Shown in pieces: positions 1-27,170 of a DNA stretch of 64,000 nucleotides. How positions within the stretch are numbered: position 1 is the first letter of the stretch; the number at the start of each line of letters is the position of its first letter. The translations under genes were made by a program, and so were the position numbers. This stretch comes from an uncultured Prevotella sp. (lineage in GTDB: Bacteria; Bacteroidota; Bacteroidia; Bacteroidales; Bacteroidaceae), in contig CAMVQS010000003.1 of assembly GCA_947169685.1 (NCBI GenBank), positions 20,023 to 84,022 on the forward strand, given 5' to 3'. The notes beneath the pieces are model-generated. The model saw only the letters and a list, made by a program, of their open reading frames with translations. It searched no databases and was not told the DNA's origin.

Positions 1-1
1 G

Positions 2-175
2 AACCAAGTGGCCAAGGTACCCTGCATCGACATCATCTCCTACTACCCCGACTGCCGCCAGAGCTCCTTCGGTCCCACGTGGCACACCGTCAACGACGAT
101 ATGAACCACCTGGACCGTGCCACCCTGCAGGCCGTCGGCCAGACGCTGGTGCAGGTTCTTTTCTCTGAAAACTAA
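2..175 (+). CDS. C-terminal fragment of M28-family / glutaminyl-peptide cyclotransferase-like protein (gene starts outside window)
   Basis: Open frame from window edge: NQVAKVPCIDIISYYPDCRQSSFGPTWHTVNDDMNHLDRATLQAVGQTLVQVLFSEN*; the 'WHTVNDDMNHLD' tail is typical of QC-like M28 enzymes. Confidence 0.7.
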   Translation, partial: NQVAKVPCIDIISYYPDCRQSSFGPTWHTVNDDMNHLDRATLQAVGQTLVQVLFSEN

Positions 176-217
176 AAAGCTATTCCCTACAATCATTAAC
201 TAACTTATTATACATTT

Positions 218-423
218 ATGAAAAACTGTTCTTACCGCTTCTGCTCTTCGTAGCAGCAACTGCACAGGCAGCAGAAAACCCCGTGTTAACAATCGAAGGA
301 GGTCAGGTTCAGGGCGTCTTGGCCGATGACCATCCAGATGTTTATGTATATCGTGGCATTCCCTATGCTGCGCCTCCCATCAAGGAGAATCGATGGAAGG
401 CGCCACAGCCCGTCGGAACGTGA
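218..423 (+). pseudogene. Truncated, frameshifted carboxylesterase (type B) N-terminus
   Basis: After a 1-nt frame disruption in the A-run following ATG, the frame reads LFLPLLLFVAATAQAAENPVLTIEGGQVQGVLADDHPDVYVYRGIPYAAPPIKENRWKAPQPVGT*, a carboxylesterase N-terminal signature; it ends abruptly at a palindrome. Confidence 0.7.
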
Positions 424-444
424 CAGGTACCAGGTACCTGTCAC
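420..444. repeat. Perfect 25-bp palindrome GTGACAGGTACC-A-GGTACCTGTCAC
   Basis: 12-bp arms are exact reverse complements around a single central base. Confidence 0.9.
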
Positions 445-501
445 ATATCAGACATATCCCACCGTCATCCGTCATAATGCCATGCGCCCAGTGGCATTGA
501 G

Positions 502-1566
502 TCATATCGCGTCTGCAATCCATTGTTTGTAAAATGGGTCTTCAATTTCATAACGATCTGTGTAAATCACATAGCCATCCTTCTGCAGTTTCTTCAATGC
601 ACTATATATGGTGCTCGTTCGATGCTCTCCAGTTTGAAGCGGTCTGTCTGTTGCCAGACGTTGCATAATCCATTTATTTGTGCGGTTAAAGTTCATCCAA
701 AGACGCTCATAGTCCAGTGAATGTGATGTGACAATACGGTTGATCGCCTTAGTGAAAGGGTCTGTCTGCTCTGGCTCCAGCATTCCCACCTGCCAAATGT
801 TGGATGCCAATTGTTGTGAGTAATACGGATGGCATGCCGTATAGTCGAGGATGCGGTTTGCCAGTTCATTGCAACTATCAGGAAAACAAGTTGCCAGCCG
901 TTCGGAAAGATAGCGGAAGAAGTCATCGCGTGGCAATTTGCTCAGACGCATCAGTTCACCAAAATGATAGAACGGTGATTTCTTGTCTTCAAAGATCTCA
1001 GTCATCATACTCTCTTGACTCCCTAAGAGGATGTAGTTGATATGCTCCTGCTTTTGCATGATGGCTCTCAGTTCCTTGTCCAATCTCGGTGCGATGTCGC
1101 GTATCTCCTGAAATTCATCAAGCACGACAATCATCCTTTCCTCTTTGGTATGAGCTTTTTCTATCAACGTCATTACGTCTTCAAGTAATACCGTTGCTTC
1201 TGCTGTTGGCTGGAATGCCACATCCATTGACCCTGTTACTGGGTTTGTGGAAATGGTGGGGATGATACGGAAATGCGTTATCAGGTGACGCACACGCTCC
1301 ATGGGGTGCACTTTAAAAAACTCCCTGAGCAACTTGGCCGAAAGGTCTGCCACAGATGTCACTTGTTGCAGATTGACCGTGATATGCTTACGTCCAGACT
1401 TCTTCACGGCTTTTTCCACCACACTACTCTTGCCGAAGCGACGGGGGCTGATGAGTATCAAGTGGTTGGCGCTGTTTACGAATTGGCAGATATATTCTAC
1501 CTCATCCACCCTGTCCGTGAAGTATTCTTCCTCCACGATGGTGCCGAATTTGAAAGGATTCTCCAT
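502..1566 (-). CDS. AAA family ATPase (archaeal-type ATPase family, PF01637-like)
   Basis: Walker A region 'ILISPRRFGKSSVVEKAV', Walker B-like 'MIVVLDEFQEI'; N-term 'NPFKFGTIVEEEYFTDRVDEV'. Confidence 0.85.
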   Translation of the reverse strand: MENPFKFGTIVEEEYFTDRVDEVEYICQFVNSANHLILISPRRFGKSSVVEKAVKKSGRKHITVNLQQVTSVADLSAKLLREFFKVHPMERVRHLITHFRIIPTISTNPVTGSMDVAFQPTAEATVLLEDVMTLIEKAHTKEERMIVVLDEFQEIRDIAPRLDKELRAIMQKQEHINYILLGSQESMMTEIFEDKKSPFYHFGELMRLSKLPRDDFFRYLSERLATCFPDSCNELANRILDYTACHPYYSQQLASNIWQVGMLEPEQTDPFTKAINRIVTSHSLDYERLWMNFNRTNKWIMQRLATDRPLQTGEHRTSTIYSALKKLQKDGYVIYTDRYEIEDPFYKQWIADAI

Positions 1567-1961
1567 ATTACGATTATTTTCGTTACGACTTTTTTCGTAG
1601 TCTGCTGCAAAGATAATAAATTGTTCTCTAACATCAAAATAAATGTGAATAAAAATATTACAATCCTACATTATTCACTCCTATCCCTCCGTAAATCCAT
1701 AACTCCGATAATCCATCTTCCATCTTACACCCGCCTTCATACATCAGACATATTCCACAATCCCGATTGCTTCTTCCGTCAAGCCTTGGCATTTTCACAA
1801 GGAGCCCATCCTATTGGAACTCGTCAAGAATGGATCATCAGAACCGTCCCGCTTTCTGAAGCGAAATGAATTTCAAATGCGGAGGTGTGGCCTGACTTCG
1901 CCGAATTCACGCGGCAAAGATACAAAATAATTTTGAAATTCAATCACAATTTTAATAATAA

Positions 1962-2030
1962 ATGCGACAGTTGGCCGTATTTTGATGCGACAGTTGGCCG
2001 TATTTTGATGCGACAGTTGGCCTTCTTTTA
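1962..2030. repeat. Three tandem copies of a 23-bp unit (GCGACAGTTGGCCGTATTTTGAT)
   Basis: GCGACAG starts at 1964, 1987 and 2010 (period 23); two diverged copies occur in inverted orientation at about 11617-11663. Confidence 0.85.
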
Positions 2031-2034
2031 CGCA

Positions 2035-2718
2035 TCAAGTAGTAAGCCAGTACGTGCGGAGCAGGTAGAGCAGCAGGAGGTGGAGAGGGTAGAAGGCGTA
2101 GAAGAAGTACTTGCCGAAGGAACCGGTGATGAATCCGCGCTTGCCGTTATACAGCGCCAGCAGGGCGAAGCCCGCTGCCACACCAGGAATATATCGCCTT
2201 GCAATGATGCAAGTACCTAAGAACAACTTCAGCACCTTCTGTTCACGCAGCACGTAGAGCAGCAAGATAAGGCCCACGCCACCTATATTATAATCCACCT
2301 TCAGGACATACGCTGCGAGGAATACCGTTATGAGCGCAAGCGTCTGCCGCATCCAGTTTTCTTTCATATACTCCCAGAGATACAGCGTCAGGAAACCCAA
2401 CAGCAGCGTGAACCCCACGTTGCCGTGCAGCCAGAACTTACTGTTGAGGTGTGCCAATGCCCACGGAGCTTGCGACACAAGGGCAAACACCAGCAGGTTA
2501 CGTCCATATTTCCTGCGGTCATGAGTATGGATGAACCCCTCCACCAGCAAGAAGGCAAACACAGGGAATGCCACACGTCCCACGGTGTGCATCAGCCGGC
2601 ACAGCTCCGGCCATTGGTGAAGCACGGGCAAGTACGATGCCGCATGGTCAATCGCCATTGTCACCATCGCAATGACCTTCAGCCAACTGCCGTTGAGTAT
2701 TTGGTAGTTATTGGACAT
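2035..2718 (-). CDS. TraX family membrane protein (cassette A)
   Basis: MSNNYQILNGSWLKVIAMVTMAIDHAASYLPVLHQW..., TraX motif and multiple TM segments; start moved to internal Met at 2718, which overlaps the upstream gene. Confidence 0.85.
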   Translation of the reverse strand: MSNNYQILNGSWLKVIAMVTMAIDHAASYLPVLHQWPELCRLMHTVGRVAFPVFAFLLVEGFIHTHDRRKYGRNLLVFALVSQAPWALAHLNSKFWLHGNVGFTLLLGFLTLYLWEYMKENWMRQTLALITVFLAAYVLKVDYNIGGVGLILLLYVLREQKVLKLFLGTCIIARRYIPGVAAGFALLALYNGKRGFITGSFGKYFFYAFYPLHLLLLYLLRTYWLTT

Positions 2719-3460
2719 GGGAATCTTTTTTCTTTTTCTCTTTCTTCTTAAACATATTCTTGATGTTATAGAGTATCTTCCCCGTAATAGGGATCTTAAC
2801 CCCTTCCTTCTCAAAGGAACGACAAGGAAGACAATGTCCACAAGGGAATCCCCAGACAGGCTTCAGACACGACCATGTATGCTTTACCACATTTTTGTAT
2901 CCCATAGCATACAGTTCTTCTATTTCCTCCTTCTTCGTTTTATGGTACAACGACTTGGGGAAATAGAAATGTCCGAACAGATTAATAACATCTTGGTCTG
3001 CTCGTGTTTTATCAATCATTAGCACATCGTAATCTGCATCAGGATGTGGAATGAGTAGTGTCTCATCTATTGCTTTGACAATGGTCCCGTTTGGAGAGAA
3101 CTGAAGCCCCATTTCCATCATTAAGTTGTTATGTGCCGCATATTTAGCAAGCCAGTAGTATTGTAGGCTGCTTGTACCTTTTCCAGGAAAAAGGTACATC
3201 CATGAATCAAAGATCTGGTTATTTTTAGCTATATCTTTCTCTTCTATGAGGATAATGTCTGACAATGTTGCACGAGTCTTATTATCTTTTCGCAATAAAT
3301 GGACTATTTTATCCATCGCATGCAGTTCCTGTTGCAAGGATTTCCTTTTTCCTACGATATAATATGGCTGTATGATGCATTCACGACGAGACAGCTCTAC
3401 TATTCGATAGGTGCTGTCTAATCCTCCTGTCCACAATATGTTAATGTGCCTATTCTCCAT
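2708..3460 (-). CDS. PP-loop / 7-cyano-7-deazaguanine synthase (QueC)-like ATPase (cassette A accessory enzyme)
   Basis: 'ILWTGGLDSTYRIVELS' PP-loop; C-terminal 'CLKPVWGFPCGHCLPCRSF' Cys cluster like the QueC zinc site. Confidence 0.7.
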   Translation of the reverse strand: MENRHINILWTGGLDSTYRIVELSRRECIIQPYYIVGKRKSLQQELHAMDKIVHLLRKDNKTRATLSDIILIEEKDIAKNNQIFDSWMYLFPGKGTSSLQYYWLAKYAAHNNLMMEMGLQFSPNGTIVKAIDETLLIPHPDADYDVLMIDKTRADQDVINLFGHFYFPKSLYHKTKKEEIEELYAMGYKNVVKHTWSCLKPVWGFPCGHCLPCRSFEKEGVKIPITGKILYNIKNMFKKKEKKKKDSHVQ

Positions 3461-4772
3461 CTTTATAGACTATGTATTGCTCCAGCATGCCTTCTTCTAT
3501 CTTACGAATATTCTCTCTACGTATGTCTTCATAGCAGACATTGTCTTCTGAACAAATTAAAAGCCTATTACATTGTGGATAATATACGCAGTCTTTACAT
3601 ATTATTTCATCTTTGGGACGTTCTTTGAAACGGTTAATCACCGCTAAATTGTTTTCTTCAGTATTGATATGACCATAGAATTCGCTATCTATGTAGTGCT
3701 CACATTTCCCCAAATATCCATTTGGGGTTATCACAACACTTCTGTCATTATCTGCCATACAGTGATTCACTCTAAATTTCGTAGGAAGTTTCGGTTTGGT
3801 TTTATAATGATAGTTTTTTATAAGTTGTTCTAGCTCCATTCGTTGCTTGTATATTACATTTCGTTCTTCCTGTGTTCGTTTGGTATTTCCTTCTATGTAG
3901 TCAAATAATACATGAGAGTAGATTGTTAAAAAGCTATTCTCGCCAAATCGCTCGTGAAGTTCTCTTACCAGAGTGAACATGTTGTCAATGTTATGCTTAT
4001 CCACATTCAACCGGATAATTACCTTGATTTCGGCAGCAGTTAGTTTTCCAATGTTATCTAACACCTGCTGATAAGCGTTTCCATCCTTATAGATATACCG
4101 CTTACTACGATTATAGATTTCTTCAGTACCATCAAGTGTAATCTGCACTTTTTTTAGTTTCCAAAGTTGCTTGGCACGTTGAATAACATTGTCATCGAAC
4201 AAATAGCCATTACTTACCATAGTGGAAGTCAGTTTAATTCCACTATCCTTCAGTTGCTGGCAAATAATGTCAATAACATGAACATTATATAACGGTTCAC
4301 CCCCAAACCAACGAATATGTATATCATTGTTTTGCTGTCTAACAATGAACTGCGCAACCCGCTTAGCTGTCTCTATGCTCATGTGGATGTGGGCTGCATT
4401 TTTTTCAAAACAGTAAAAACAACGGGCATTACAATCTGAAGTAGGAAGGATAACAAAATTATCCATTCCTGTATTTTTCTTTTCAAAAAGCATTGCCATT
4501 GACTTCACCTGCTTACAAAGTTTTTTGTCATCGTGGTCTTGTGGAACTAAAAACCATAATTCAAATAGTTCATCTAATTCCATGAGGTGCTGAGCCTCTT
4601 CTTTGTTTAGCCATACTAAGCATAGTGTGAGAGTATTATAAATCAACAACCCATCTTCAACATGTTGTTGTATAACATATGTTAACAGACGAAGAGGGAA
4701 TTGGTCTTCTTTTCGTTTTTGCTGTCCAATAATCTTATCTACTATAGTAGTAGGAGGGATAATAATCTGCAT
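3450..4772 (-). CDS. Radical SAM/SPASM peptide maturase (cassette A)
   Basis: CNARCFYCFE (CX3CX2C), 'RWFGGEPLYN', C-terminal CEHY...CKDCVYYPQCNRLLIC SPASM-like cysteines; start chosen as MQIIIPP to match paralog MQIIQPP. Confidence 0.9.
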   Translation of the reverse strand: MQIIIPPTTIVDKIIGQQKRKEDQFPLRLLTYVIQQHVEDGLLIYNTLTLCLVWLNKEEAQHLMELDELFELWFLVPQDHDDKKLCKQVKSMAMLFEKKNTGMDNFVILPTSDCNARCFYCFEKNAAHIHMSIETAKRVAQFIVRQQNNDIHIRWFGGEPLYNVHVIDIICQQLKDSGIKLTSTMVSNGYLFDDNVIQRAKQLWKLKKVQITLDGTEEIYNRSKRYIYKDGNAYQQVLDNIGKLTAAEIKVIIRLNVDKHNIDNMFTLVRELHERFGENSFLTIYSHVLFDYIEGNTKRTQEERNVIYKQRMELEQLIKNYHYKTKPKLPTKFRVNHCMADNDRSVVITPNGYLGKCEHYIDSEFYGHINTEENNLAVINRFKERPKDEIICKDCVYYPQCNRLLICSEDNVCYEDIRRENIRKIEEGMLEQYIVYKDGE

Positions 4773-4773
4773 A

Positions 4774-5805
4774 TTATTCCAAAGCAACTCCACCTAAACC
4801 GACCTCCGAATCGTAAGGAGTAACATAGGCAGAGGGGGTCGTTGTTAAAGCTAATCCAGTAAAGGCTATTCCTCGAACTGTGCCCCTTTCCCAATTACGT
4901 GAATCACTATTATCCAATGTCATTGTCTGTGAATAACAATTACCATTAGAATCCCATACATAAGCTGTTATGGTTTTTCCTCGTAAATCTATAGGGGGAA
5001 CAACTAGATAGGCCGTTAACACATTCTTGGTAGCCAGAGGGGCACTCTTAATTAGTACATATACGAAATTGGTGTTATTCTCTGCTATGAATGGTTGAGA
5101 TTCTGGAGTATGTTTGCCATTCGCATTTTTATGAACATCAAACAAATCAAAGTATCCCTTTTGGGGGAAACCGTTATAATCAATTGCTAATACGACCTTA
5201 CGGTAATCTGCATTAGTTGGAGCATAGCACTGAAATCTTAATATACATGCCATGTTTCTTAGCGAAGCATGGAAAGTTCCATTATCTGCACGTGTGGTGT
5301 CTGTCGCTTCAAAAATATGCTCTCCCAAATGTTCGTGGTTGGTATTAACTGATTGTATTTGAGGTTTGCCGTAATCCCATGGAATCCTATTATAATTTCG
5401 GTTGTAAAAATTAAAAGGCAAGTATGTTGAATACATAATACCATCCTTAGTCATCCATCCTTGCGCTTCAATAAGTACTCCCGATGCTGTTTCCCCTTCT
5501 TTTAATGGTAAAACAAATGGTATTTGATAACCACCGTCGGGGAAAATACCCAAAGTATCCGTATGCTCAAAAAGTATACCAATATTTTGCCCCGTACCAG
5601 TAGTAGTTGCACGGGTTGTAACCAAGGAGTCGTTATTTTGTTCATCTATGGAAGGCTCGAGCTTACTGGAGTCCAAGGGAAGTCTACTGACAATAATGTG
5701 ATCTACACGACTATAACCTGTCCATTCGTCTACATTTGTTGAACACGACACAACAAGACAGATGAACAATTGAGAAACAAAGCAATTTTTAAAATAACGC
5801 CTCAC
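4774..5805 (-). CDS. Fimbrillin-like lipoprotein (cassette A)
   Basis: Lipobox 'LVVSC|S'; 'HTDTLGIFPDGGYQIPF', 'YSTYLPFNFYNRNYNRIPW'; paralogous to 7736-8734; C-term ...DSEVGLGGVALE. Confidence 0.75.
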   Translation of the reverse strand: MRRYFKNCFVSQLFICLVVSCSTNVDEWTGYSRVDHIIVSRLPLDSSKLEPSIDEQNNDSLVTTRATTTGTGQNIGILFEHTDTLGIFPDGGYQIPFVLPLKEGETASGVLIEAQGWMTKDGIMYSTYLPFNFYNRNYNRIPWDYGKPQIQSVNTNHEHLGEHIFEATDTTRADNGTFHASLRNMACILRFQCYAPTNADYRKVVLAIDYNGFPQKGYFDLFDVHKNANGKHTPESQPFIAENNTNFVYVLIKSAPLATKNVLTAYLVVPPIDLRGKTITAYVWDSNGNCYSQTMTLDNSDSRNWERGTVRGIAFTGLALTTTPSAYVTPYDSEVGLGGVALE

Positions 5806-5827
5806 TAAAAAACGGAGTTAATGAATA

Positions 5828-5956
5828 TCAAAGACCATCACAGCTATTTGTTGGGCAATCACCGTTACACTCCTCCTGAGAGGCTGAAAGAATTCCAATA
5901 GTCATGTTCAGCTTAATCTCCTCCATCTCGGGAGTTTCATACATCTTCTTTTCCAT
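5828..5956 (-). CDS. Putative RiPP precursor peptide A (42 aa)
   Basis: Read directly from minus strand: MEKKMYETPEMEEIKLNMTIGILSASQEECNGDCPTNSCDGL*; leader MEKKMYETPEMEEIKL identical to precursor B; immediately upstream of the lipoprotein and rSAM genes. Confidence 0.85.
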   Translation of the reverse strand: MEKKMYETPEMEEIKLNMTIGILSASQEECNGDCPTNSCDGL

Positions 5957-6076
5957 ATTACGTTTTTCTTGTTCGTGCTCCCTGTTCCCTTTAAGGAGCG
6001 GTTATCTTTACTGCGGCCGTGGGAACTCCGACCCATCATTTCTTACATACTGCCATCCACCTCGCGGCCCGAGGTG
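5954..6076 (-). promoter_or_regulatory. Conserved structured 5' leader of precursor A
   Basis: Near-identical to 7467-7590 in inverted orientation; includes hairpin CACCTCG-GGCCG-CGAGGTG and GTTCCC...GGGAAC pairing. Confidence 0.7.
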
Positions 6077-6084
6077 GATATCTT

Positions 6085-6212
6085 GTTCCCACCGTGGGAA
6101 CAGATTGAAAGGTGCCGTGTAAGGGTTCGTTACATACTATGTAAGGCACCCTTACATAGGGGTTAACGACCCGAAAGTCGGTATGTTTCGGTGCGAAAGT
6201 CGGTATGTTTCG
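6085..6212 (-). repeat. Dispersed repeat copy 1 (inverted relative to 63740-63866)
   Basis: Minus strand reads CGAAACATACCGACTTTCGCACCGAAACATACCGACTTTCGGGTCGTTAACCCCTATGTAAGG...GTAACGAACCCTTACACGGCACCTTTCAATCTGTTCCCACGGTGGGAA, matching the copy at 63.7 kb. Confidence 0.9.
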
Positions 6213-6251
6213 CCGGAACAGGTCAAGACCTCAAGCGACAACCCTGAAACA

Positions 6252-6418
6252 TCGATGTACACAGCGTTTGAGGTATAGGGGGTGTTGGCATAAGACCCCC
6301 CATACACCTCCCATACACCCCCCATACACTCCATAGATCTGTCAACATGAGGTCTATGGGGGGTGTATGTGAGATCTTACCATAACACCCCCTATACCTC
6401 AAACGCTGTGTACATCGA
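6252..6418. repeat. MITE-like nested inverted repeat (35-bp outer arms, 15-bp inner arms)
   Basis: Outer arms 6252-6286 / 6384-6418 are perfect reverse complements (TCGATGTACACAGCGTTTGAGGTATAGGGGGTGTT); inner arms 6312-6326 / 6355-6369; C-rich 11-bp CATACAC-CCCC tandem repeats within. Confidence 0.9.
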
Positions 6419-6532
6419 CATTTCAGACGGCCATAGGAGTATGTGGGGTGTTTCTCAAAATTCTGATTCACTCCCAGCCCCCTGTGTTTCAATAAACAAT
6501 GCCATGCACCGAGAGAAGTATGTTGAAAAAGT

Positions 6533-6625
6533 GTTTTTTAATTAAATTCTAACCTGGCAAACCATCTTTTTATCACTTTTTCCCGAAATTGTTTGGCGGT
6601 TCAGAAAAGTATTCATAACTTTGCC
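6533..6625 (+). repeat. 93-bp direct repeat, copy 1, containing promoter TTTG(6592-6595)-N20-TAACTTTG(6616-6623)
   Basis: Near-identical to 7361-7453; drives the downstream TA pair. Confidence 0.85.
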
Positions 6626-6651
6626 AACAAGAAAACAACAAAAGAGATATT

Positions 6652-6939
6652 ATGACAGCTTTAGCAAAGAAAATATCAGAAACGCCTATGGCCCCATACA
6701 CAGAACTTTTGCGAAGTATGAAGCCGCAAGAGATACGCATTGTTGTTACCTTTTTGCAAGAGGCATTGCAAGAGGCAGAAGGGGTAAATCCAGAAGCAAA
6801 TGTCTCTGAGATTATCCGCAACAAGTTTAAAGGCCTTACCATCTCGCAGGAGACCAAGGATCTCGTGCGAGACCTTTCGTTGTCTTCAGAAGAAATGGGT
6901 GATGAAAGAACACAATACATTTTAGGGTATAGACAATGA
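6652..6939 (+). CDS. Putative antitoxin of PIN-type TA pair
   Basis: 95 aa small protein overlapping the PIN-domain ORF start by 4 nt; no recognisable domain, assigned by position. Confidence 0.55.
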   Translation: MTALAKKISETPMAPYTELLRSMKPQEIRIVVTFLQEALQEAEGVNPEANVSEIIRNKFKGLTISQETKDLVRDLSLSSEEMGDERTQYILGYRQ

Positions 6940-7349
6940 CAAAGGTTTTTCTTGATACAAACATCTTGATGGACTTTGTTGAAAATCGTGAAAGACGAGA
7001 ATATGCTGAGACCATCATTGAGCTTGGGAAAACAGGTGTAATACAGCTTTATGCCTCATATCTGTCGTATGCCAACATGGGGTATGTCCTACGTCACCGT
7101 AGCCAAGAAGAGCGCTACCGTATGATTAATAATGCTCGTAAAATTGCAACTGTGTTGCCATGTGACTCAGACCAGCTTGACAGCACTTTGGAAAAGCCTG
7201 TGAAAGACTACGAAGACATGCTGCAGTATCAATGCGCGTTGGCAGCAGGATGTGATGTCATAGTAACAAATAACAAACGTGACTTTTTCGAGTTTTGCAA
7301 GTTACCATTTCTTACTTCGGAAGAATTCCTGTTGCAGATTGATTTTTGA
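6936..7349 (+). CDS. PIN-domain toxin (VapC-like)
   Basis: 'KVFLDTNILMDFVENRERR', 'YEDMLQYQCALAAGCDVIVTNNKRDF' PIN acidic motifs. Confidence 0.8.
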   Translation: MTKVFLDTNILMDFVENRERREYAETIIELGKTGVIQLYASYLSYANMGYVLRHRSQEERYRMINNARKIATVLPCDSDQLDSTLEKPVKDYEDMLQYQCALAAGCDVIVTNNKRDFFEFCKLPFLTSEEFLLQIDF

Positions 7350-7360
7350 GCGTATGGCCG

Positions 7361-7453
7361 TTTTTTAATTAAATTCTAACCTGGCAAACCATCTTTTTAT
7401 TACTTTTTCCCGAAATTGTTTGGCTGTTCAGAAAAGTATTTGTACCTTTGCCC
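7361..7453 (+). repeat. 93-bp direct repeat, copy 2, containing promoter TTTG(7420-7423)-N20-TACCTTTG(7444-7451) for cassette B
   Basis: Matches 6533-6625 with a handful of mismatches; Bacteroidota -33/-7 consensus. Confidence 0.85.
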
Positions 7454-7466
7454 TCGAAATGTGTAC

Positions 7467-7590
7467 ACCTCGGGCCGCGAGGTGGATGGCAGTATGTAAA
7501 AAATGATGGGTCGGAGTTCCCACGGCCGCAGTAAAGATAACCGCTCCTCAAAGGGAACAGGGAGCCAGAAAAAAGTATAAACGTAATATG
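7467..7590 (+). promoter_or_regulatory. Conserved structured 5' leader of precursor B
   Basis: Mirror of 5954-6076; hairpin CACCTCGGGCCGCGAGGTG at 7467-7485. Confidence 0.7.
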
Positions 7591-7719
7591 GAAAAGAAGA
7601 TGTATGAGACTCCCGAGATGGAGGAGATTAAGCTGAAGATGGAAAAGAGCCTGATGGGATGTGTTGAAGTTGGTACGACTTCTGATGTGGATTGTGATGA
7701 ATTTTGTGAAGAAGACTAA
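7588..7719 (+). CDS. Putative RiPP precursor peptide B (43 aa)
   Basis: MEKKMYETPEMEEIKLKMEKSLMGCVEVGTTSDVDCDEFCEED*; leader identical to precursor A, divergent Cys-containing core; absent from supplied ORF track. Confidence 0.85.
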   Translation: MEKKMYETPEMEEIKLKMEKSLMGCVEVGTTSDVDCDEFCEED

Positions 7720-7735
7720 TGATTCATTCTGTTGA

Positions 7736-8734
7736 ATGAGATTGTCGTTGACGGTATTGAGACCTATTTCCTTGTGTCTGTTTTGCGTTATGTTTGTCAT
7801 AGCGTGTAACAGTCAAGAGGATTCATACACTTTGGTGAAAGAGATTAAATTGACCATTGAAGACATGGAAATAGGTGAACTAGATGATTCTATTTCTGCA
7901 AACGAAATTATTACTCGTTCAATCTTAGAAAATGACGGATCAAAAGTTTCATATCTTTTTGAAGATCATGACACCATCGGTATTTTTCCCGAGGGAGGTT
8001 TTGAGATCCCTTTTATAGTTGAAATACCAGATTTAGTGCCAACAAAAGAGGTTACTCTTATTGCGAATGGTTGGCGTACTAAGGATGGAGTGAAGTATTG
8101 CTCATATCTGCCTTTTGACCGATACAACTTTGACTACTCTAATCGTGTTCCATGGAGATTTGCAGGAATAAGACAAAATGGAAACAAAGACGGAGTAAAA
8201 ACAGGTTCTAAGAATTCTCTATTCTTGGCAACACGCCCTACGGAAACGACTCCAGAAGGGCTCTTTAATGCGGCTTTTACACATATGGGGACTATTGTAC
8301 GCGCTAATTACAAACTTGCAACTGTAGGGACCTTTAAAAAGGCATGCATTGTAGCGCCAACGGCTCGATTTGCCTTAAATGGCACTTATGATCTTTATGC
8401 AGACGGACAACCTTTTACACCAGGAGAAATGAGTAATCATTTCGACGTCATGCTGGATAACTTAACAACAACTGCAAGTTCCACCAACGTTTATGTTTAT
8501 TATATTCTATCACCAGATATCAGCAATGCTAGCGGTGACCAGTTGATAGGCTACATATGGGATGACAACGGCATACGATACAGAGGGGTTTATACGTTTT
8601 CCAAAGCTACAGTATGGAAGCGGAATGGCTTTGCCACCATTAGTTTTACAATGGAACGAGAATCAAACAACCTTGATGTTTATCAAAATGAATTCAGTAC
8701 GGAATCGGAATTTAACGGTGTCGCTATAGAATAA
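7736..8734 (+). CDS. Fimbrillin-like lipoprotein (cassette B)
   Basis: Lipobox 'FVIAC|N'; 'EDHDTIGIFPEGGFEIPF', 'YCSYLPFDRYNFDYSNRVPW' shared with cassette A paralog; C-term ...STESEFNGVAIE. Confidence 0.75.
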   Translation: MRLSLTVLRPISLCLFCVMFVIACNSQEDSYTLVKEIKLTIEDMEIGELDDSISANEIITRSILENDGSKVSYLFEDHDTIGIFPEGGFEIPFIVEIPDLVPTKEVTLIANGWRTKDGVKYCSYLPFDRYNFDYSNRVPWRFAGIRQNGNKDGVKTGSKNSLFLATRPTETTPEGLFNAAFTHMGTIVRANYKLATVGTFKKACIVAPTARFALNGTYDLYADGQPFTPGEMSNHFDVMLDNLTTTASSTNVYVYYILSPDISNASGDQLIGYIWDDNGIRYRGVYTFSKATVWKRNGFATISFTMERESNNLDVYQNEFSTESEFNGVAIE

Positions 8735-8747
8735 TAGAATTTTCTCT

Positions 8748-10067
8748 ATGCAAATTATTCAACCCCCATCTCCACTAATAGATGGTTTACTGAAATCTCA
8801 GAAATATCATATAGGAACAGAATACCGATTGATAACGTATGCTATAAAGCTACTGGTACCAGAAGGCGTTTTGCTTTACAATTTACTGACCAAATGCATT
8901 GTATTATGCCAACAAGAAGACTTGAAGGCAGCTTCAGCGGATAATCCGCTCATACAATATTGGTTTTTAGTTCCAGAAAAACACGATGACCAGCGACTCT
9001 GTGAACAGATAAGAAGTGCTCTACAACTGATTCAAAAAAAAGAGAATTTCATTTCTGGGTATTGTATATTTACGACTACTGTTTGTAATGCACGTTGTTT
9101 CTATTGTTTTGAACGTGGTAGCAAGGAACGGACGATGAATGATGAAATAGCTGCAAAGGTGGTTGACTATATCGCACAGAATGCATGTGGCCATCAAGTG
9201 CGCTTTCGCTGGTTTGGTGGAGAACCTCTCTACAACATGCAGGCTATTGATAATATATGCGATGGACTTAAGAGACGAGGTGTTGATTATGTTTCTAAGA
9301 TGGTTAGCAATGGATATTTGTTTAATGAAAACGTAATCAAAAGAGCTGCGACATTATGGAAGTTGGATAAAATCCAGATAACCCTTGACGGAACAGAAGA
9401 AAAATACAATCGTATTAAAAACTATAAGGATAATAGAGAGAGTGCCTATCTGCGAGTAATGAAAAATATCGGCTTGCTGTTGGAATATGGTATCCGGGTC
9501 GTTATTCGCCTGAACATTGATGCCATCAACATTGAGGATATGACTTGTCTGGTTCATGAGCTACATACTCGCTATGGTGGAAATAAATTGCTTTCAGTTT
9601 ATTCACGTACTTTGTTTGAAAATAAAGGATGTGTTCGCAAAAGAAGCAATGAGGAGCGAGCACTTCTTTGTAATCAGCAAATAGAATTGGAAAAACTTAT
9701 TTACGGATACAATTTGAATGAAGCCCCATCAAATTTACGAAAAGTTTGGGTGAATGCCTGCATGGCAGACACCTCGCATACTATCACAATATTACCAGAC
9801 GGAAAACTGGGAAAGTGTAATGATTATTTGGAGAGTCACTTTGTCGGAACGCTCGACGAGGGAATCACAGACGAAAAGATGGTGCAAGCATTTACGCTTC
9901 AACGGGAGCCATTAGCCGATTGTAGGTCTTGTGCTCTTCAACCAGATTGCCTTAGATTACAGCTATGCATGGAAAAAGAACACTGCTACGTTGAAGAAAG
10001 AAGAATCAAGGTGTTTCGTATTCAGCAAATGATGTTGAAAACATTTGAGAAAAACAAGGCAGTATGA
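8748..10067 (+). CDS. Radical SAM/SPASM peptide maturase (cassette B)
   Basis: CNARCFYCFE, 'RWFGGEPLYN', 'MVSNGYLFNENVIKRA', SPASM cysteines CNDY...CRSCALQPDCLRLQLC. Confidence 0.9.
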   Translation: MQIIQPPSPLIDGLLKSQKYHIGTEYRLITYAIKLLVPEGVLLYNLLTKCIVLCQQEDLKAASADNPLIQYWFLVPEKHDDQRLCEQIRSALQLIQKKENFISGYCIFTTTVCNARCFYCFERGSKERTMNDEIAAKVVDYIAQNACGHQVRFRWFGGEPLYNMQAIDNICDGLKRRGVDYVSKMVSNGYLFNENVIKRAATLWKLDKIQITLDGTEEKYNRIKNYKDNRESAYLRVMKNIGLLLEYGIRVVIRLNIDAINIEDMTCLVHELHTRYGGNKLLSVYSRTLFENKGCVRKRSNEERALLCNQQIELEKLIYGYNLNEAPSNLRKVWVNACMADTSHTITILPDGKLGKCNDYLESHFVGTLDEGITDEKMVQAFTLQREPLADCRSCALQPDCLRLQLCMEKEHCYVEERRIKVFRIQQMMLKTFEKNKAV

Positions 10068-10933
10068 GAACAATTCTTTCATACAGAATAGCAGGAATAG
10101 ATTTTGCAATAAATATAGAAAAAGAGGCTATTGAACAAAATCTGCTAAATCACTACAACTCTTTTAGAATAGAAGGAACAAAAGAATTTGATTTTGTACT
10201 GGACATCGTCAACCGACAGGAAAGAATGGAAGGTGAACAGATTCTTGGCGGTGACAAGATAAGAAGCCAGATATATCGGGTACAGAACGGTTACTATAAG
10301 GAGGCGTTAGGCAGAGAGAGGAGAAGAGTGTTGTATGCAATATATTTAAATAGCAATTATAGCTATGGAAGGTTGAAAATAAATCAGCATACTCGTACTA
10401 TATTGAACGAAGCCATTATGACCATGTTTTTTGCTGCAATGGCCAAATTCCACGTAATAAAAATTCATGCATCGTCTGTCATTAAGGATGGCAAAGCCAT
10501 TCTCTTTCATGCGCCATGTGGTACAGGTAAGAGTACGCATAGTCAGCAATGGATGAAGGCATTTCCTGATGCGGAACTGTTGAATGATGATGGACCCGTA
10601 GTACGCGTATGGCCTGACGGAAGGGTGATTGCATACGGCAGTCCTTGGAGTGGGAAAACTCCTTGCTACAAAAACCTATCGGCACCTGTAGCTGCATTTG
10701 TACGTATCAACAGGGCTAAAGAAAACAAGATTCATCGCCTAAGACTTGTGGAGGCATATGCATCATTACTTCCTTCCTGTACTGGAGTAAAGTGGAATGA
10801 TGATATACGCAATTATACACATGAAACCATGCAAAAGGTAATATCAACCGTTCCCTTTTATCAATTGGACTGCCTACCCAACGAGGACGCTGCAAGGGTA
10901 TGTGCAGCGGAAGTATTGAAACTACATGAATAG
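10064..10933 (+). CDS. HPr kinase/phosphorylase-like (HprK-like) ATPase (cassette B accessory enzyme)
   Basis: 'IKIHASSVIKDGKAILFHAPCGTGKSTHSQQW' Walker A, 'LLNDDGPVVRVW', 'AYGSPWSGK'; start overlaps rSAM stop. Confidence 0.75.
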   Translation: MRTILSYRIAGIDFAINIEKEAIEQNLLNHYNSFRIEGTKEFDFVLDIVNRQERMEGEQILGGDKIRSQIYRVQNGYYKEALGRERRRVLYAIYLNSNYSYGRLKINQHTRTILNEAIMTMFFAAMAKFHVIKIHASSVIKDGKAILFHAPCGTGKSTHSQQWMKAFPDAELLNDDGPVVRVWPDGRVIAYGSPWSGKTPCYKNLSAPVAAFVRINRAKENKIHRLRLVEAYASLLPSCTGVKWNDDIRNYTHETMQKVISTVPFYQLDCLPNEDAARVCAAEVLKLHE

Positions 10934-11612
10934 CAATAACTACCAAATACTGAGTGGAAGCTGGCTGAAGGTCATCGCGATGGTGACGATGGCGATTGAC
11001 CATACGGCATCGTACCTGCCTGTGCTTCACCAATGGCCGGAACTGTGTTGGCTGATGCACACTGTGGGACGTGTGGCATTCCCCGTGTTTGCCTTCTTGC
11101 TGGTGGAGGGATTTGTCCATACCCATGATCGCAGGAAGTACGGACGGAACCTACTGGTACTTGCCTTGGTGTCACAGACTCCGTGGGCATTGGCACACCT
11201 CAACAGTAAGTTCTGGCTGCACGGCAACGTGGGGTTCACGCTGCTGTTGGGTTTCCTGACGCTGTATCTCTGGGAGTATATGAAAGAAAACTGGATGCGG
11301 CAGACGCTTGCGCTCATAACGGTATTCCTCGCAGCGTATGTCCTGAAGGTGGATTATAATATAGGTGGCGTGGGCCTTATCTTGCTGCTCTACGTGCTGC
11401 GTGAACAGAAGGTGCTGAAGTTGTTCTTAGGTACTTGCATCATTGCAAGGCGATATATTCCTGGTGTGGCAGCGGGCTTCGCCCTGCTGGCGCTGTACAA
11501 TGGCAAGCGCGGATTCATCACAGGTTCCTTCGGCAAGTATCTTTTCTACGCCTTCTACCCTCTCCACCTCCTGCTGCTCTACCTGCTCCGCACATACTGG
11601 CTTACCACTTGA
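10926..11612 (+). CDS. TraX family membrane protein (cassette B)
   Basis: Nearly identical to the cassette A TraX (about 8 differences over ~228 aa by eye). Confidence 0.85.
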   Translation: MNSNNYQILSGSWLKVIAMVTMAIDHTASYLPVLHQWPELCWLMHTVGRVAFPVFAFLLVEGFVHTHDRRKYGRNLLVLALVSQTPWALAHLNSKFWLHGNVGFTLLLGFLTLYLWEYMKENWMRQTLALITVFLAAYVLKVDYNIGGVGLILLLYVLREQKVLKLFLGTCIIARRYIPGVAAGFALLALYNGKRGFITGSFGKYLFYAFYPLHLLLLYLLRTYWLTT

Positions 11613-11616
11613 TGCG
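11591..11616 (+). repeat. 26-bp direct repeat CACATACTGGCTTACCACTTGATGCG, copy 1 (left of hipBA)
   Basis: Identical to 13339-13364. Confidence 0.9.
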
Positions 11617-11664
11617 GAGGAAACACGGCCAACTATCGCATCAAAACACGGCCAACTGTCATAA

Positions 11665-12918
11665 TCAGGACTTCACTCGGCTGTCTAATCGTTGGGCGAA
11701 TCGGTTTTGTTCTGATGGGGATATTTTGAGTTCATTGGCAACTTTCCTCCAATCCCTGACTGCCGTTTTTGTCTTCTCTATGATTCTTGCTGCTGTGTCT
11801 GGAGAAAGGAAATAGTCTTTACAGGCATCTTGCAACTTCTCGAGACTTGCTTCATTCGAGTTGTTATTGATGAGCAGGCTTTGATTGTTACTGTCAGTCG
11901 GGTTAAGGTCATAGGCTGGGGATAATGTCCAACCTTTCTTCGTCAAGAGAAATCCGTGGTTTCGGAAATGATCGTCACTATTGCCCACACAAATGTTAAA
12001 TACCACACGTCGAAATAGCTCTTCAAGATTGTCATCGACATTGACACAATTGGAAAGAATAAAATCTACAATATCCAAATAGCCATGTCCTGTTTCGAAG
12101 TTGTCTCCGTCCTTTAAGCCTGTCATAGTCATGGCAGAAGCAAAATGGATCCGACGGCATGCTTCTGTTCTATCGAATCGTCTTGAGAGCAGTGCATGAT
12201 ATCTACCAACCGGCAGTATTGCCGTTTCTGCTGCGTTTATGGATGCAGACTTTGCCAAGACATGACAGAAATGCTCCCATAGAGCTACATCATACAGGTC
12301 ATTACGTGAAGGAAACTTTGCAATCCACAAACCTCCGTTTTCGTCGGTTACATTGGCTTTCGGTCGAGCACCGCCCAAAGATGTGCCTGGGCGTTCTAAT
12401 TGCCTGATCCATTTCTTTTCAGGCAATTCATTAGCCTCCTCGCTCTTCTCATATTCCTGAGCTATTGCTGTCAGCTCTTTTACTGAGGTTAATGGCGGTA
12501 CAGACAATCTATTATCCGAATTGACAAATTCTCCATTAGGATCCTTCTTAAATCGAAGGCCTCCCATACGGGTGTAATCATCAATACCTTTTAGGTAGTC
12601 AAAAGAGTAAAGTGACCTTACTGCTCTCTTTTCCTCTGCTGCCTCAACCTGCTCTTTCCTGTCCAGCAAACGACGTCCCCATCTGTCAGGAAGTGTATCA
12701 GAGATACAGCCAAAAACATGTTCCTCTTGAGAATACTGGAAGCCTGCATAATTGCCGATTTCATCACTCAAGACAATGGCACTATGATTCTTCAACCATT
12801 CTTTTTCAAAACAGAAACCGTAAGTACCATTACCACGCAGACGTTCATACGTCAGACAGCCAACCAACTCGGGGTTGTCTAGCCAGTCGAAATCGGCATA
12901 CACATAGAGTTTTTCCAT
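11665..12918 (-). CDS. hipA: HipA-family type II toxin-antitoxin kinase
   Basis: 'LGGARPKANVTDENGGLWIAKFPSRND', 'ALLSRRFDR', 'NICVGNSDDHFRNHGFLL' HipA motifs. Confidence 0.92.
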   Translation of the reverse strand: MEKLYVYADFDWLDNPELVGCLTYERLRGNGTYGFCFEKEWLKNHSAIVLSDEIGNYAGFQYSQEEHVFGCISDTLPDRWGRRLLDRKEQVEAAEEKRAVRSLYSFDYLKGIDDYTRMGGLRFKKDPNGEFVNSDNRLSVPPLTSVKELTAIAQEYEKSEEANELPEKKWIRQLERPGTSLGGARPKANVTDENGGLWIAKFPSRNDLYDVALWEHFCHVLAKSASINAAETAILPVGRYHALLSRRFDRTEACRRIHFASAMTMTGLKDGDNFETGHGYLDIVDFILSNCVNVDDNLEELFRRVVFNICVGNSDDHFRNHGFLLTKKGWTLSPAYDLNPTDSNNQSLLINNNSNEASLEKLQDACKDYFLSPDTAARIIEKTKTAVRDWRKVANELKISPSEQNRFAQRLDSRVKS

Positions 12919-12921
12919 AGC

Positions 12922-13242
12922 TTAATCTTTTTTCGAGGCTCGTTCACGATGTTTCAACTCCAAGTCTTGAAGTGTTCTCCCGAGAGGATCGTCCTTGGCC
13001 AGCGATAAGATATCGTCATCTAACTGCAAAGCATAGAGAATACGCAGATAAATACCTATAGCGACGGTAGGCATACCTTTCTCCACACGCATCACGGTCA
13101 GCTCAGAGCACGTGGCCCTTTCTGCAATTTGGGCAACACTAAGATTACGACGCAGACGAGCCAGACGTATCTGTTCGCCGACAATCTGCATCTTTTGCTC
13201 CAATCTCCTTGGTAATTTCGTACTACGTGTTGCCTTTGTCAT
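12922..13242 (-). CDS. hipB: HipB-like HTH antitoxin/autorepressor
   Basis: XRE-type HTH 'IRLARLRRNLSVAQIAERATCSELTVMRVEKG' directly upstream of hipA. Confidence 0.88.
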   Translation of the reverse strand: MTKATRSTKLPRRLEQKMQIVGEQIRLARLRRNLSVAQIAERATCSELTVMRVEKGMPTVAIGIYLRILYALQLDDDILSLAKDDPLGRTLQDLELKHRERASKKD

Positions 13243-13251
13243 ATTAATATG

Positions 13252-13299
13252 CTATCATTTAATGATGCAAAGATACAGAAAAACTATATTAAATGATAG
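13252..13299 (-). promoter_or_regulatory. hipBA promoter/operator
   Basis: Inverted repeat CTATCATTTAAT (13252-13263) / ATTAAATGATAG (13288-13299) flanking a minus-strand TATCTTTG box. Confidence 0.75.
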
Positions 13300-13338
13300 G
13301 TTGCTGACATATTGTTATAGATTATTAACACAAAGGTC

Positions 13339-13364
13339 CACATACTGGCTTACCACTTGATGCG
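13339..13364 (+). repeat. 26-bp direct repeat, copy 2 (right of hipBA)
   Basis: Identical to 11591-11616; lies over the 3' end of the beta-barrel gene. Confidence 0.9.
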
Positions 13365-14096
13365 TAGAAGAAGGCCGGCGTTGTAAACGGTCTTGGGGGC
13401 TATGTCGGCAGAGGCGAAGAGGCATTTGAGCTGGCCGCGTGCTCCGATGGTGACATTGGGCAGGACGCTGAGCTCGGCCGTGAGGCTGACAGGCACATAA
13501 GGTGCAGTATAGTTGTCCTTCTGTTTCTCAGACTTCACGTAGGCATGCTGATAGATATTGCTATAGGTGTCGCCCTCGGCAATGGCCTCAGCATTATAGG
13601 CAGTAGTGCGGGTGTTACTGCCCTTACTCATAAGGAGGCCTACTCCCGTACCTACATAGACATTGAAGGGGCTTGTGCGCCCCTTGAGCCAAAGAGCAGA
13701 CAGGGCATATTCTGCAGTGAATTGGCCGGCAGCTATGTGCTGTCGGTTTTTGTTTTGCAGGCAGTCGGCCTGTGTGGTGAGCGTGGTCTGATGACCGCCA
13801 AGCATGAAGTTAGGGTCGGTGAGAACGGTAGAGGTTATCTTGTCGTTGTGCTCACGCAGGAGGAGATAGCCAGCCTCTGCACTGAAGCGCAGGGAAGGCA
13901 AGTACTGCCAGGTGACACCTGCTGCCACCTCGGGCGAGAGGGTCGGTGTGCCTTCGTAGAGGGGGCTGCTGATGCCGCTATAGGTTCCAAGGGCTCCACT
14001 GGCATATAGCGACCATCGGCCGCCTGCCTGCTGCGCTTGCAGCGGCAGGCAGGCGATGAGCCCAAAGACTATGTTGAGAAAATACTGTCTTTTCAT
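13350..14096 (-). CDS. Outer membrane beta-barrel protein
   Basis: Signal peptide, alternating strands, terminal aromatic '...GLLLRIKW'. Confidence 0.6.
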   Translation of the reverse strand: MKRQYFLNIVFGLIACLPLQAQQAGGRWSLYASGALGTYSGISSPLYEGTPTLSPEVAAGVTWQYLPSLRFSAEAGYLLLREHNDKITSTVLTDPNFMLGGHQTTLTTQADCLQNKNRQHIAAGQFTAEYALSALWLKGRTSPFNVYVGTGVGLLMSKGSNTRTTAYNAEAIAEGDTYSNIYQHAYVKSEKQKDNYTAPYVPVSLTAELSVLPNVTIGARGQLKCLFASADIAPKTVYNAGLLLRIKW

Positions 14097-14110
14097 TATC
14101 GTCAGTCTTA

Positions 14111-16126
14111 TTATTGAACAGAAGCGGCATAGGGCTGCGTGCGGATGTTTTCTGTAGGCATGAACACGCCCGTATCGCTGTCGTAGTTATAGAAACGGAA
14201 GACACGTCCAGCACTCATATCGGTGCCTGTGGCTGAGACGGGCCAGCCGTAAAGTGCGCGGCAGGAGCTCAGCGTGGGGTCGTTGGGTTTGGCATCGACG
14301 GCAGAGATAAAGAACACATACTTATATGTGTCTTCGTAATAGGTGAACTGCATGTCGGTCCATTCGCAGACGTTACGCACCACAAGTGAATAATGACCGT
14401 CGATAACGACGGTGCCTGTCACCATGAGCTTGGCAGGAGCCTTGTTGCTGACCGTCCACTGGTAGTTGTAGCGCTGGGTGCTTCCCGATACGCTCTTGTT
14501 GTCGCTACAGATAACAGGAACCGTGGGCAAGTCGTTGTCGTCCATGCGCATGAGCTGTCTGGGAGTGACGGACACCTCGCAGAGCATGTGCTGGAAGGCG
14601 GCATTGAGCGTGGCATCGGCATTGATGGCCTGGAAGAGCGTTGGCGTCAGGTACATATACTCATAGGTGGTATGCTCGTCAGTGGAGTGTACGGGACAGG
14701 GATCGGGGAAGGTGACGCCGTTCTCCAGGTTGAGCAGGGTTTCCATCTGGTCGTTGTTCTGACTGAGTTTTTCCAGAATCTGGGCAAGCTCAGTATTACG
14801 GGTTGCAGTGATGGCATCGTTCAGCGTGGTGGTACAGGTGCCGAGCGTGGTCACGACATTGGTGTTGAGGGCTGAAATGAGTTCGCCGTTAGAACCGATA
14901 GCTGCAATGATGAGCTGTCCCTGGGTGTTGACGGCACTGACCATGTTGCCTCCTTGTGTGTTAACAGCTGTCTGCAGGTTGCCGATAGCTGTAATGACAT
15001 CGGTCTTGAGGGTGTTGACAGCAGTGATATTGTCATTGATCTTGCTGGTGATGGTGCTGGTCGAAGTGCTGATAGCAGTCTCTACGCTTGAGAATCCCTC
15101 GAGCAGGTTGCTATTGATGGTGCCCAGCGTGGTATTGATGGTGCCCAGCGTGGTATTGGTGACCTCGAGTTTGGCTTCGATGCCTTCACCCATATTGCCG
15201 ATTTTGACAATGACATTGCCGAGTCCTGTCTCAATGATAGTACTCATGGCATCGAGCTTGGCCTGCAGCGAGGCGTTATGGTCCTGCAGTGCCGCTACGA
15301 GGTTGGTGGTCTGTGCCTTGATGGCAGTTTCGATAAGTTGTCCGTTCTGGTCGAGGTGCAGGGCGATGAGGTCACCGTTGTTGTTGATGGCATAGACGAT
15401 GCGGTCGCCGTTGTCCTGCAGGGTGCTGTTAAGTCCGGCAAAGCCTTCAAGGATAGTATTGTTGAGTGACTGGAAGTTCTGGGCCAACGCATCTGTCAAT
15501 GAGTCAAGCATGCCGCCGTTGGCTTCGAGCTTAACGCTGATGTTACTTCCTATATCACCAATCTTGACAACGATATTGGCCAGTCCTGTCTCGATGATGG
15601 TATTTATGGCATCGAGCTTACTCTGCATGGAGGCGTTATTGTCCTTGAGCGTCTGTATCAGAAGGCCAACCTGTGCCTTGATAGTGCCGTCGATGAGACG
15701 TCCGTTCTCGTCGAGGTGCAGAGCGATGAGGTCACCGTTGCTATTGAGTGCATAGACGATGCGGTCGCCATTGTCCTGTATGACGGTCTTGAGTGACTTG
15801 AAACCGTCGAGCAGCGTGACGTTGATGTTGTTGAGGGTGTTATTGACATTGTTGAACCCTTCGCCAATGGTGGCACTGAGTATCTGAATGTCGTTAGTAC
15901 TAACATCAACTGAGATCTTGATGTCAGCCAATCCTGTCTCCAGCAGTTTGTTGAGGGCATCCATGCGCTCCTCAAGGCTACTGGTAAGGTTATTGACGGC
16001 ATCCACCAGTTTCTGGTAGTCGTTAATGTAGGTTCGCGCTCCATAGTCGATAGACGGTGAGAACTCCTCAGTACATGCGGCTAATGTGAGCAAGCCACAA
16101 ATCAGTAAACAATAAATCTTCTTCAT
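14111..16126 (-). CDS. Lipoprotein with long coiled-coil and internal ~120-aa repeats
   Basis: 'LLTLAAC|T'; repeated 'QDNGDRIVYA(L/I)N(S/N)NGDLIALHLD(E/Q)NG(R/Q)LI...KLDA..TIIETGL.N(I/V)(V/I)VKIG'. Confidence 0.75.
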   Translation of the reverse strand: MKKIYCLLICGLLTLAACTEEFSPSIDYGARTYINDYQKLVDAVNNLTSSLEERMDALNKLLETGLADIKISVDVSTNDIQILSATIGEGFNNVNNTLNNINVTLLDGFKSLKTVIQDNGDRIVYALNSNGDLIALHLDENGRLIDGTIKAQVGLLIQTLKDNNASMQSKLDAINTIIETGLANIVVKIGDIGSNISVKLEANGGMLDSLTDALAQNFQSLNNTILEGFAGLNSTLQDNGDRIVYAINNNGDLIALHLDQNGQLIETAIKAQTTNLVAALQDHNASLQAKLDAMSTIIETGLGNVIVKIGNMGEGIEAKLEVTNTTLGTINTTLGTINSNLLEGFSSVETAISTSTSTITSKINDNITAVNTLKTDVITAIGNLQTAVNTQGGNMVSAVNTQGQLIIAAIGSNGELISALNTNVVTTLGTCTTTLNDAITATRNTELAQILEKLSQNNDQMETLLNLENGVTFPDPCPVHSTDEHTTYEYMYLTPTLFQAINADATLNAAFQHMLCEVSVTPRQLMRMDDNDLPTVPVICSDNKSVSGSTQRYNYQWTVSNKAPAKLMVTGTVVIDGHYSLVVRNVCEWTDMQFTYYEDTYKYVFFISAVDAKPNDPTLSSCRALYGWPVSATGTDMSAGRVFRFYNYDSDTGVFMPTENIRTQPYAASVQ

Positions 16127-17125: not shown

Positions 17126-17161
17126 TTTTAACTCTTAACTCTAAATTCTAAACTATGTCCT

Positions 17162-18130: not shown

Positions 18131-18151
18131 TTTCTACATGTCACTAATTAG

Positions 18152-20076: not shown

Positions 20077-20077
20077 C

Positions 20078-21694: not shown

Positions 21695-21697
21695 CGG

Positions 21698-24095: not shown

Positions 24096-24108
24096 ATCTG
24101 TTTCATTT

Positions 24109-25632: not shown

Positions 25633-25635
25633 ACG

Positions 25636-27159: not shown

Positions 27160-27170
27160 TCGGCATTTTA

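Follow-up and report, generated by a model that had tools for sequence, protein, structure and literature searches.

An open reading frame of 42 residues, lying on the minus strand of the window (i.e. the whole stretch of 64 000 nucleotides that was analysed) between an ATG at 5956 and a stop codon ending at 5828, is very probably a real RiPP precursor (peptide A), cross-linked by the radical-SAM (rSAM) enzyme encoded in its neighbourhood. The account as a whole, in which peptide A gives rise to a radical-SAM RiPP by acquiring i,i+3 thioethers, losing its leader and being exported, is judged likely. It draws on the position of the reading frame in its operon, the occurrence of leader-type reading frames beside homologous enzymes and the selection acting on such leaders, the Cys content of peptides adjacent to the enzyme, the enrichment of Asp and Tyr at the third position after Cys, a model of the enzyme that matches CteB first, a QueC-like homologue bearing a PqqD domain, and a gene order that recurs at two other loci (L107 and L116). 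Counted against it are the promoter region of peptide A, the cores that lack CX2[D/E], the third Cys of peptide A, the weaker signal in Clostridia, the rSAM loci at which no leader-type reading frame was found, the frequency of similar leaders away from the rSAM, and the fact that no peptidase or exporter was recognised in the operons. The peptides would form an apparently unnamed group of rSAM-modified products, predicted in Bacteroidales and Clostridia of the rumen and gut, and the quantitative cross-link rule proposed for them, which relates Cys to the residue at +3, is unlike the CX3D rule of PapA.

The 42-residue product (MEKKMYETPEMEEIKLNMTIGILSASQEECNGDCPTNSCDGL) is encoded by the first gene of operon A, the plus strand at 5828-5956 being interrupted by a stop, and has the sequence proposed in the initial annotation. 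A second precursor, the 43-residue peptide B (MEKKMYETPEMEEIKLKMEKSLMGCVEVGTTSDVDCDEFCEED; 7588-7719, plus strand), opens the divergent operon B. As had been stated, the first 16 residues are common to the two peptides, their codons differing by one synonymous base, and the cores are unrelated. The leader of peptide A comprises approximately residues 1-26, the core Q27-L42, with the boundary placed by inference; both leaders contain Y6-E-T-P9 (a YxxP motif), and each peptide has three Cys, which in peptide A (C30, C34 and C39) follow the CX3CX4C spacing previously noted. Neither peptide matches a Pfam or NCBIfam family. The proposal that peptide A is a modified, Cys-rich precursor gains from the conserved leader, the variable Cys-containing core and the adjacent thioether-type rSAM; what does not stand is CX3CX4C as the key feature, its place being taken by Cys-x-x-Asp/Tyr.

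Operon A (minus strand) encodes, after peptide A, a fimbrillin-like lipoprotein of 343 residues from a GTG (4774-5805), a radical-SAM/SPASM enzyme (maturase A, 3450-4793; PF04055, E 5e-14), a QueC-like PP-loop enzyme of 250 residues (2708-3460; PF06508, E 1.7e-4, slightly under the gathering score) and a TraX-like membrane protein (2035-2721). The start of maturase A is listed as GTG 4793, while homologues suggest ATG 4772; the start of the TraX-like gene (ATG 2721) overlaps the end of the QueC-like gene. Operon B, its divergent sister on the plus strand, encodes after peptide B a lipoprotein (7736-8734; 32% identical to lipoprotein A), an rSAM/SPASM enzyme (maturase B, 8748-10067; 42% identical to maturase A), an HprK-like kinase (10064-10933; TIGR04352, E 7.5e-6, under the cut-off) and a TraX-like protein (10926-11612; PF05857, E 2.2e-37). 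Neighbouring genes overlap or almost abut in both cases, as expected of operons. Neither a leader peptidase nor an exporter could be identified within operons A and B, and searches of their proteins with Pfam and NCBIfam gave no lasso cyclase, B2 peptidase, discrete RRE or SpI-like peptidase. A homologue of the QueC-like enzyme, 60% identical, is found at locus L062 (7119-8102), where it has a C-terminal PqqD domain and is divergent from an rSAM of the same family.

The identity of the two leaders must be read in the light of the DNA in which it is embedded. The leader-coding part of peptide A and its 5' flank (5903-6076, minus strand) are an inverted copy of the corresponding part of peptide B (7466-7641, plus strand), with one repeat (I2, 108 nt, 95%) in the non-coding DNA upstream of the two ATGs and another (I4, 63 nt, 97%) spanning the leader; A/B leader identity is, therefore, weak evidence for peptide function when taken alone. 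No additional copy of the 5' flank was found in the genome (an 82% complete assembly of 109 contigs) or in 59 relatives. At the outer ends of the operons, the TraX-like genes form a 683-nt inverted repeat (2031-2713 and 10934-11616; 94%), and additional short repeats are present at 1966-2056, 11591-11660 and 13339-13376. The middles of the operons have diverged, as the identities of the maturases and lipoproteins indicate, and in a tree rSAM A groups with Prevotella enzymes (99/95 support), rSAM B falling elsewhere at a placement that is not firm. The two enzymes are not sisters, which, together with their divergence and that of the lipoproteins, rules out a simple recent operon duplication. 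Operon bodies that are old, flanked by leader, 5' flank and TraX sequences that are 94-97% identical, suggest that the ends recombined or underwent gene conversion, either the ends having been homogenised or the middles exchanged. The idea that lipoprotein-bearing operons form one rSAM clade is not supported by the tree.

These repeats bear on whether peptide A is a gene at all, since the reading frame is short, its leader identity lies within an inverted DNA repeat and no strong promoter was found upstream. A Bacteroidota-type promoter match (TTTG-N20-TACCTTTG) precedes peptide B at 7419-7450 on the plus strand; upstream of peptide A there is no equally strong match to TTTG-N20-TANNTTTG, the best site agreeing at 7-8 of 10 positions, and expression of A could therefore fail in certain conditions. 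That the frame is a spurious one, or that DNA duplication made it as a non-functional copy of the B leader, is nonetheless very improbable: its intact core bears no relation to the B core and shows the CX2D pattern of the family, its cognate enzyme, rSAM A, is of full length and falls among relatives that look functional, and in relatives selection acts on the leader. The initial annotation had allowed that the leader similarity might prove to be a DNA duplication only, and this is half borne out, in that the A/B pair does lie in a repeat, while relatives show selection on the leader itself.

The DNA between the two peptides holds further elements. A toxin-antitoxin-like pair (a 95-residue protein and a PIN-domain protein) occupies 6533-7452 between 93-nt direct repeats, each of which carries a Bacteroidota-type promoter match. 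Between peptide A and this pair, a long near-perfect palindrome (6240-6430; DNA fold -63.9 kcal/mol, z -14.9) has half-copies elsewhere in the genome, two of them no more than 400 bases from where a contig begins, and is perhaps a repeated, MITE-like element; no Rfam family was found within positions 1-16000.

A search with peptide A alone gave, outside its own genome, weak matches (E 0.06 or worse), and rSAM homologues were therefore used as queries instead. Among 300 genomes of the genus, full-family rSAM matches (E 1e-80 or better) occurred in approximately 16 further genomes, and a scan of genome contigs with the rSAM yielded 79 loci, most of them in Bacteroidales and Clostridia of the rumen or gut and one in an Atopobiaceae. 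When a leader profile was iterated on the first 34 residues, a small reading frame with a leader of this type ([Y/F]xxPxME) was found within 3 kb of the rSAM at 62 of 80 homologous loci, a count that leaves out A and B (64 with both), and was not found at the other 18. The consensus is K-K-x-[Y/F]-E-x-P-x-M-E-[I/V]-[V/I]-x-[L/I], frequently followed by a Ser about nine residues on; among relatives, Y or F is present in 96% of the leaders and P in 89%. In three groups of leaders, pN/pS was approximately 0.34, 0.28 and 0.28, values which indicate that the small reading frames evolve as protein-coding sequence under purifying selection. The order peptide, lipoprotein, rSAM is seen in A, B, L107 and L116, the last from the culturable Prevotella sp. 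AGR2160, and the neighbourhoods of related rSAMs contain HprK-like kinases (19 loci), ABC-transporter-type proteins (15) and two signal-peptidase-like clusters (7 and 5), the names of the last two types, but not that of the kinases, reflecting a reading of representative sequences. At five other loci (L164, L165, L166, L168 and L063), a different type of radical SAM (LPYREFLAMIQE...) adjoins peptides of the sequence MKTEKKTYEKPTVQKVEFDFKTRIAASGC..., some with HprK-like neighbours, and perhaps forms with them another RiPP system whose leader is related.

Leaders of this kind are not confined to such loci. Within the genus, 84 of 150 genomes contain similar ones away from this rSAM; the leader type is not specific to this enzyme. 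It is the Cys content of the core that goes with the rSAM. Peptides beside it contain Cys in 68 of 70 cases (mean 2.7), compared with 10 of 46 elsewhere (mean 0.35). The model that retrieved the control peptides covered core positions as well, a bias that would, if any, be towards Cys. Of the 10 Cys-bearing controls, one adjoins an rSAM other than this one (L187) and another is close to a gene read by us as peptidase-like (L196). From their N-terminal sequences, the products of the genes directly next to most controls were judged to be fimbrillin-like lipoproteins or other secreted proteins. Among loci L186-L225 (e.g. L195, L198, L218 and L220), Cys-free YxxP-leader peptides flank such genes, sometimes several per locus, and the arrangement is seen in many Prevotella-type genomes. 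Within the window itself, a tandem array of approximately ten fimbrillin-like lipoprotein genes is found at 16139-28457 (minus strand), and all six that were scanned match PF13149. Lipoprotein A has no match in Pfam, and neither A nor B matches PF13149 at the Pfam gathering score; their profile aligns with that of the array (hhalign E 1.2e-6, probability 91%), and the best Foldseek matches are putative adhesins of Bacteroides, obtained with a low-confidence model (pLDDT 53) and thus suggestive.

It might accordingly be asked whether the peptides belong to a wider leader-like family serving the expression or assembly of surface proteins, with the rSAM being secondary or acting elsewhere, e.g. 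on the lipoprotein. Peptides A and B each directly precede a fimbrillin-like lipoprotein, and many of the leader-like peptides found without the rSAM stand beside fimbrillin-like or secreted-protein genes. However, Cys content and Asp/Tyr at Cys+3 follow the rSAM, and most rSAM loci have no lipoprotein and yet have Cys cores, which makes this reading improbable. A broader scheme, in which Bacteroidales YxxP-leader peptides are tied to fimbrillin-like proteins and are, in the present case, cross-linked by the rSAM (CX2[D/Y]) and displayed on, or controlling, surface fimbriae, is put forward as a tentative and rather doubtful one. The link between RiPP-like leaders and fimbrillin-like genes could reveal a function for many small unannotated Prevotella reading frames.

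The spacing of residues around Cys was analysed in 66 non-redundant cores, compared with 2000 within-core shuffles over 14 offsets (-6 to +8) and 20 residues, shared descent being handled solely by dropping similar cores and by taking one core per leader group. Two cells of the scan stood out, namely Asp at Cys+3 (40 observed versus about 15.5 expected; z 6.9) and Tyr at the same position (17 versus 4.5; z 6.6), and neither was reached by any of the 2000 shuffles (family-wise p<0.001). Reducing the set to 40 cores, one for each leader group, left the same two cells in the lead (z 7.5 and 5.5; family-wise p 0.000 and 0.001). Asp was enriched at no other offset from -6 to +8, including Cys+4, the CX3D spacing of PapA, where 17 were observed and 14.8 expected. 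The first guess at a motif had been an acidic residue or Asn at Cys+3: Asp was kept, Tyr was an unexpected addition, and Glu and Asn were dropped at the family-wise level, Asn (z 3.2) lying under significance. By group, the enrichment of Asp is clear in Bacteroidales (32 versus 12.2 expected) and weaker in Clostridia (8 versus 3.2). The CX2D motif is present in 28 of the 66 cores and CX2[D/E] in 40, leaving 26 with neither. Peptide A fits with C30-N-G-D33 and C34-P-T-N37, and peptide B with C40-E-E-D43; C39 of peptide A has Leu at +3. Cross-links are thus predicted, on the basis of sequence, at C30-D33 and possibly C34-N37 in A, and at C40-D43 in B. The loss of 2 Da per thioether anticipated earlier for the mature core is retained as a prediction, with one or two cross-links in peptide A and not three.

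Both rSAMs match the Radical_SAM Pfam family. Their top NCBIfam model is TIGR04463, a family of radical SAM/SPASM RiPP maturases, with scores (139.5 and 130.3 bits) so far under its cut-off of 525 that they are not members; the scores against NF047865, the PapB family (86.9 and 77.3 bits), likewise fall below the cut-off of 340. The CX3CX2C cluster motif and the conserved C-terminal (SPASM-type) Cys are invariant in the alignments. In an AlphaFold2 model of the rSAM (pLDDT 91), a strand/helix domain precedes the barrel and, read by eye against CteB-type enzymes, may be RRE-like. The best PDB matches of the model are CteB (5why and 5wgg), followed by TigE, SkfB and SuiB; 5wgg is also the first match of the sequence profile. 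CteB is a non-alpha thioether maturase, SkfB matures a sactipeptide and SuiB forms carbon-carbon links.

The presence of SkfB and SuiB among these neighbours, and the fact that alpha and beta carbons are indistinguishable by spacing statistics, leave some room for a product of another kind: the peptide would be a substrate of the rSAM, but the bond would be to an alpha-carbon, as in sactipeptides, or of some other rSAM type, with Asp or Tyr at +3 serving for recognition or metal binding. The closest match is, however, the non-alpha thioether enzyme CteB. Furthermore, Asp is the acceptor in the Cys/Asp pairs of the PapB system (PMC9413430), and this reading is considered unlikely.

In the preferred reading, i.e. 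i,i+3 thioether formation, the RRE-like N-terminal domain of the rSAM/SPASM enzyme would bind the [Y/F]xxPxME leader. The enzyme would then activate the side chain three positions after Cys, with a preference for Asp or Tyr and possibly Asn, and bond the Cys sulfur to it, giving the small rings that the spacing statistics suggest; in peptide A these would be C30-D33 and possibly C34-N37, each formed with the loss of 2 Da. Cleavage, probably close to residue 26, a conserved Ser, would then release the leader. The remaining peptide, perhaps modified further by the QueC-like and TraX-like enzymes, may be exported and work together with the co-encoded fimbrillin-like lipoprotein on the cell surface.

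Several known systems share parts of this arrangement. The YxxP leader motif, the Ser near the end of the leader and the HprK-like kinase recall linear polyphosphorylated peptides (LPP) and paeninodin-like lasso peptides (PMC13381572), as do the signal-peptidase-like and transporter genes near relatives. However, LPP systems combine the YxxP leader and HprK-like kinase with a discrete RRE and a SpI-like peptidase (PMC13381572) and have no rSAM, whereas here the RRE-like domain would be the rSAM N-terminus; also unlike lasso peptide systems, no lasso cyclase was recognised here. The RiPP clusters previously mined from Bacteroidales (PMC10352776) are also dominated by rSAMs, but in most of the precursors analysed there the leader is of the GG type, with C39-peptidase transporters, and fimbrillin does not appear in the text. 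As to the QueC-like enzyme, in phage defence members of the QueC family can attach a deazaguanine to proteins (PMC11996544, PMC13279940), and by analogy it may be speculated that the enzyme of operon A does so to the peptide; a 2026 survey of the QueC family (PMC13329287) mentions no radical SAM or RiPP context. No CX2D ranthipeptide family was found named in the open-access papers searched, nor is there one in Pfam or NCBIfam. The closest parallels are PapA/PapB (freyrasin) and CteA/CteB (SCIFF), which share the rSAM/SPASM maturase and the short precursor with a leader and a Cys core; the likeness to PapA lies in Cys/Asp pairing, and that to CteB in its being the nearest solved structure to the rSAM model. 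SCIFF peptides have six Cys in about 45 residues, compared with the three each of A and B. PapB links the Cys and Asp of CX3D motifs, and in vitro it also accepts CXnD for n = 0-6 (PMC9413430); a review notes that earlier work had found CX2D mostly not accepted (PMC8172795). The present peptides differ from PapA in their accessory genes and in their motif (CX2D/Y versus CX3D; PMC9413430), and we infer from their sequences that they are ranthipeptide-like RiPPs, probably with i,i+3 thioethers, in which CX2D/Y takes the place of the CX3D of PapA.
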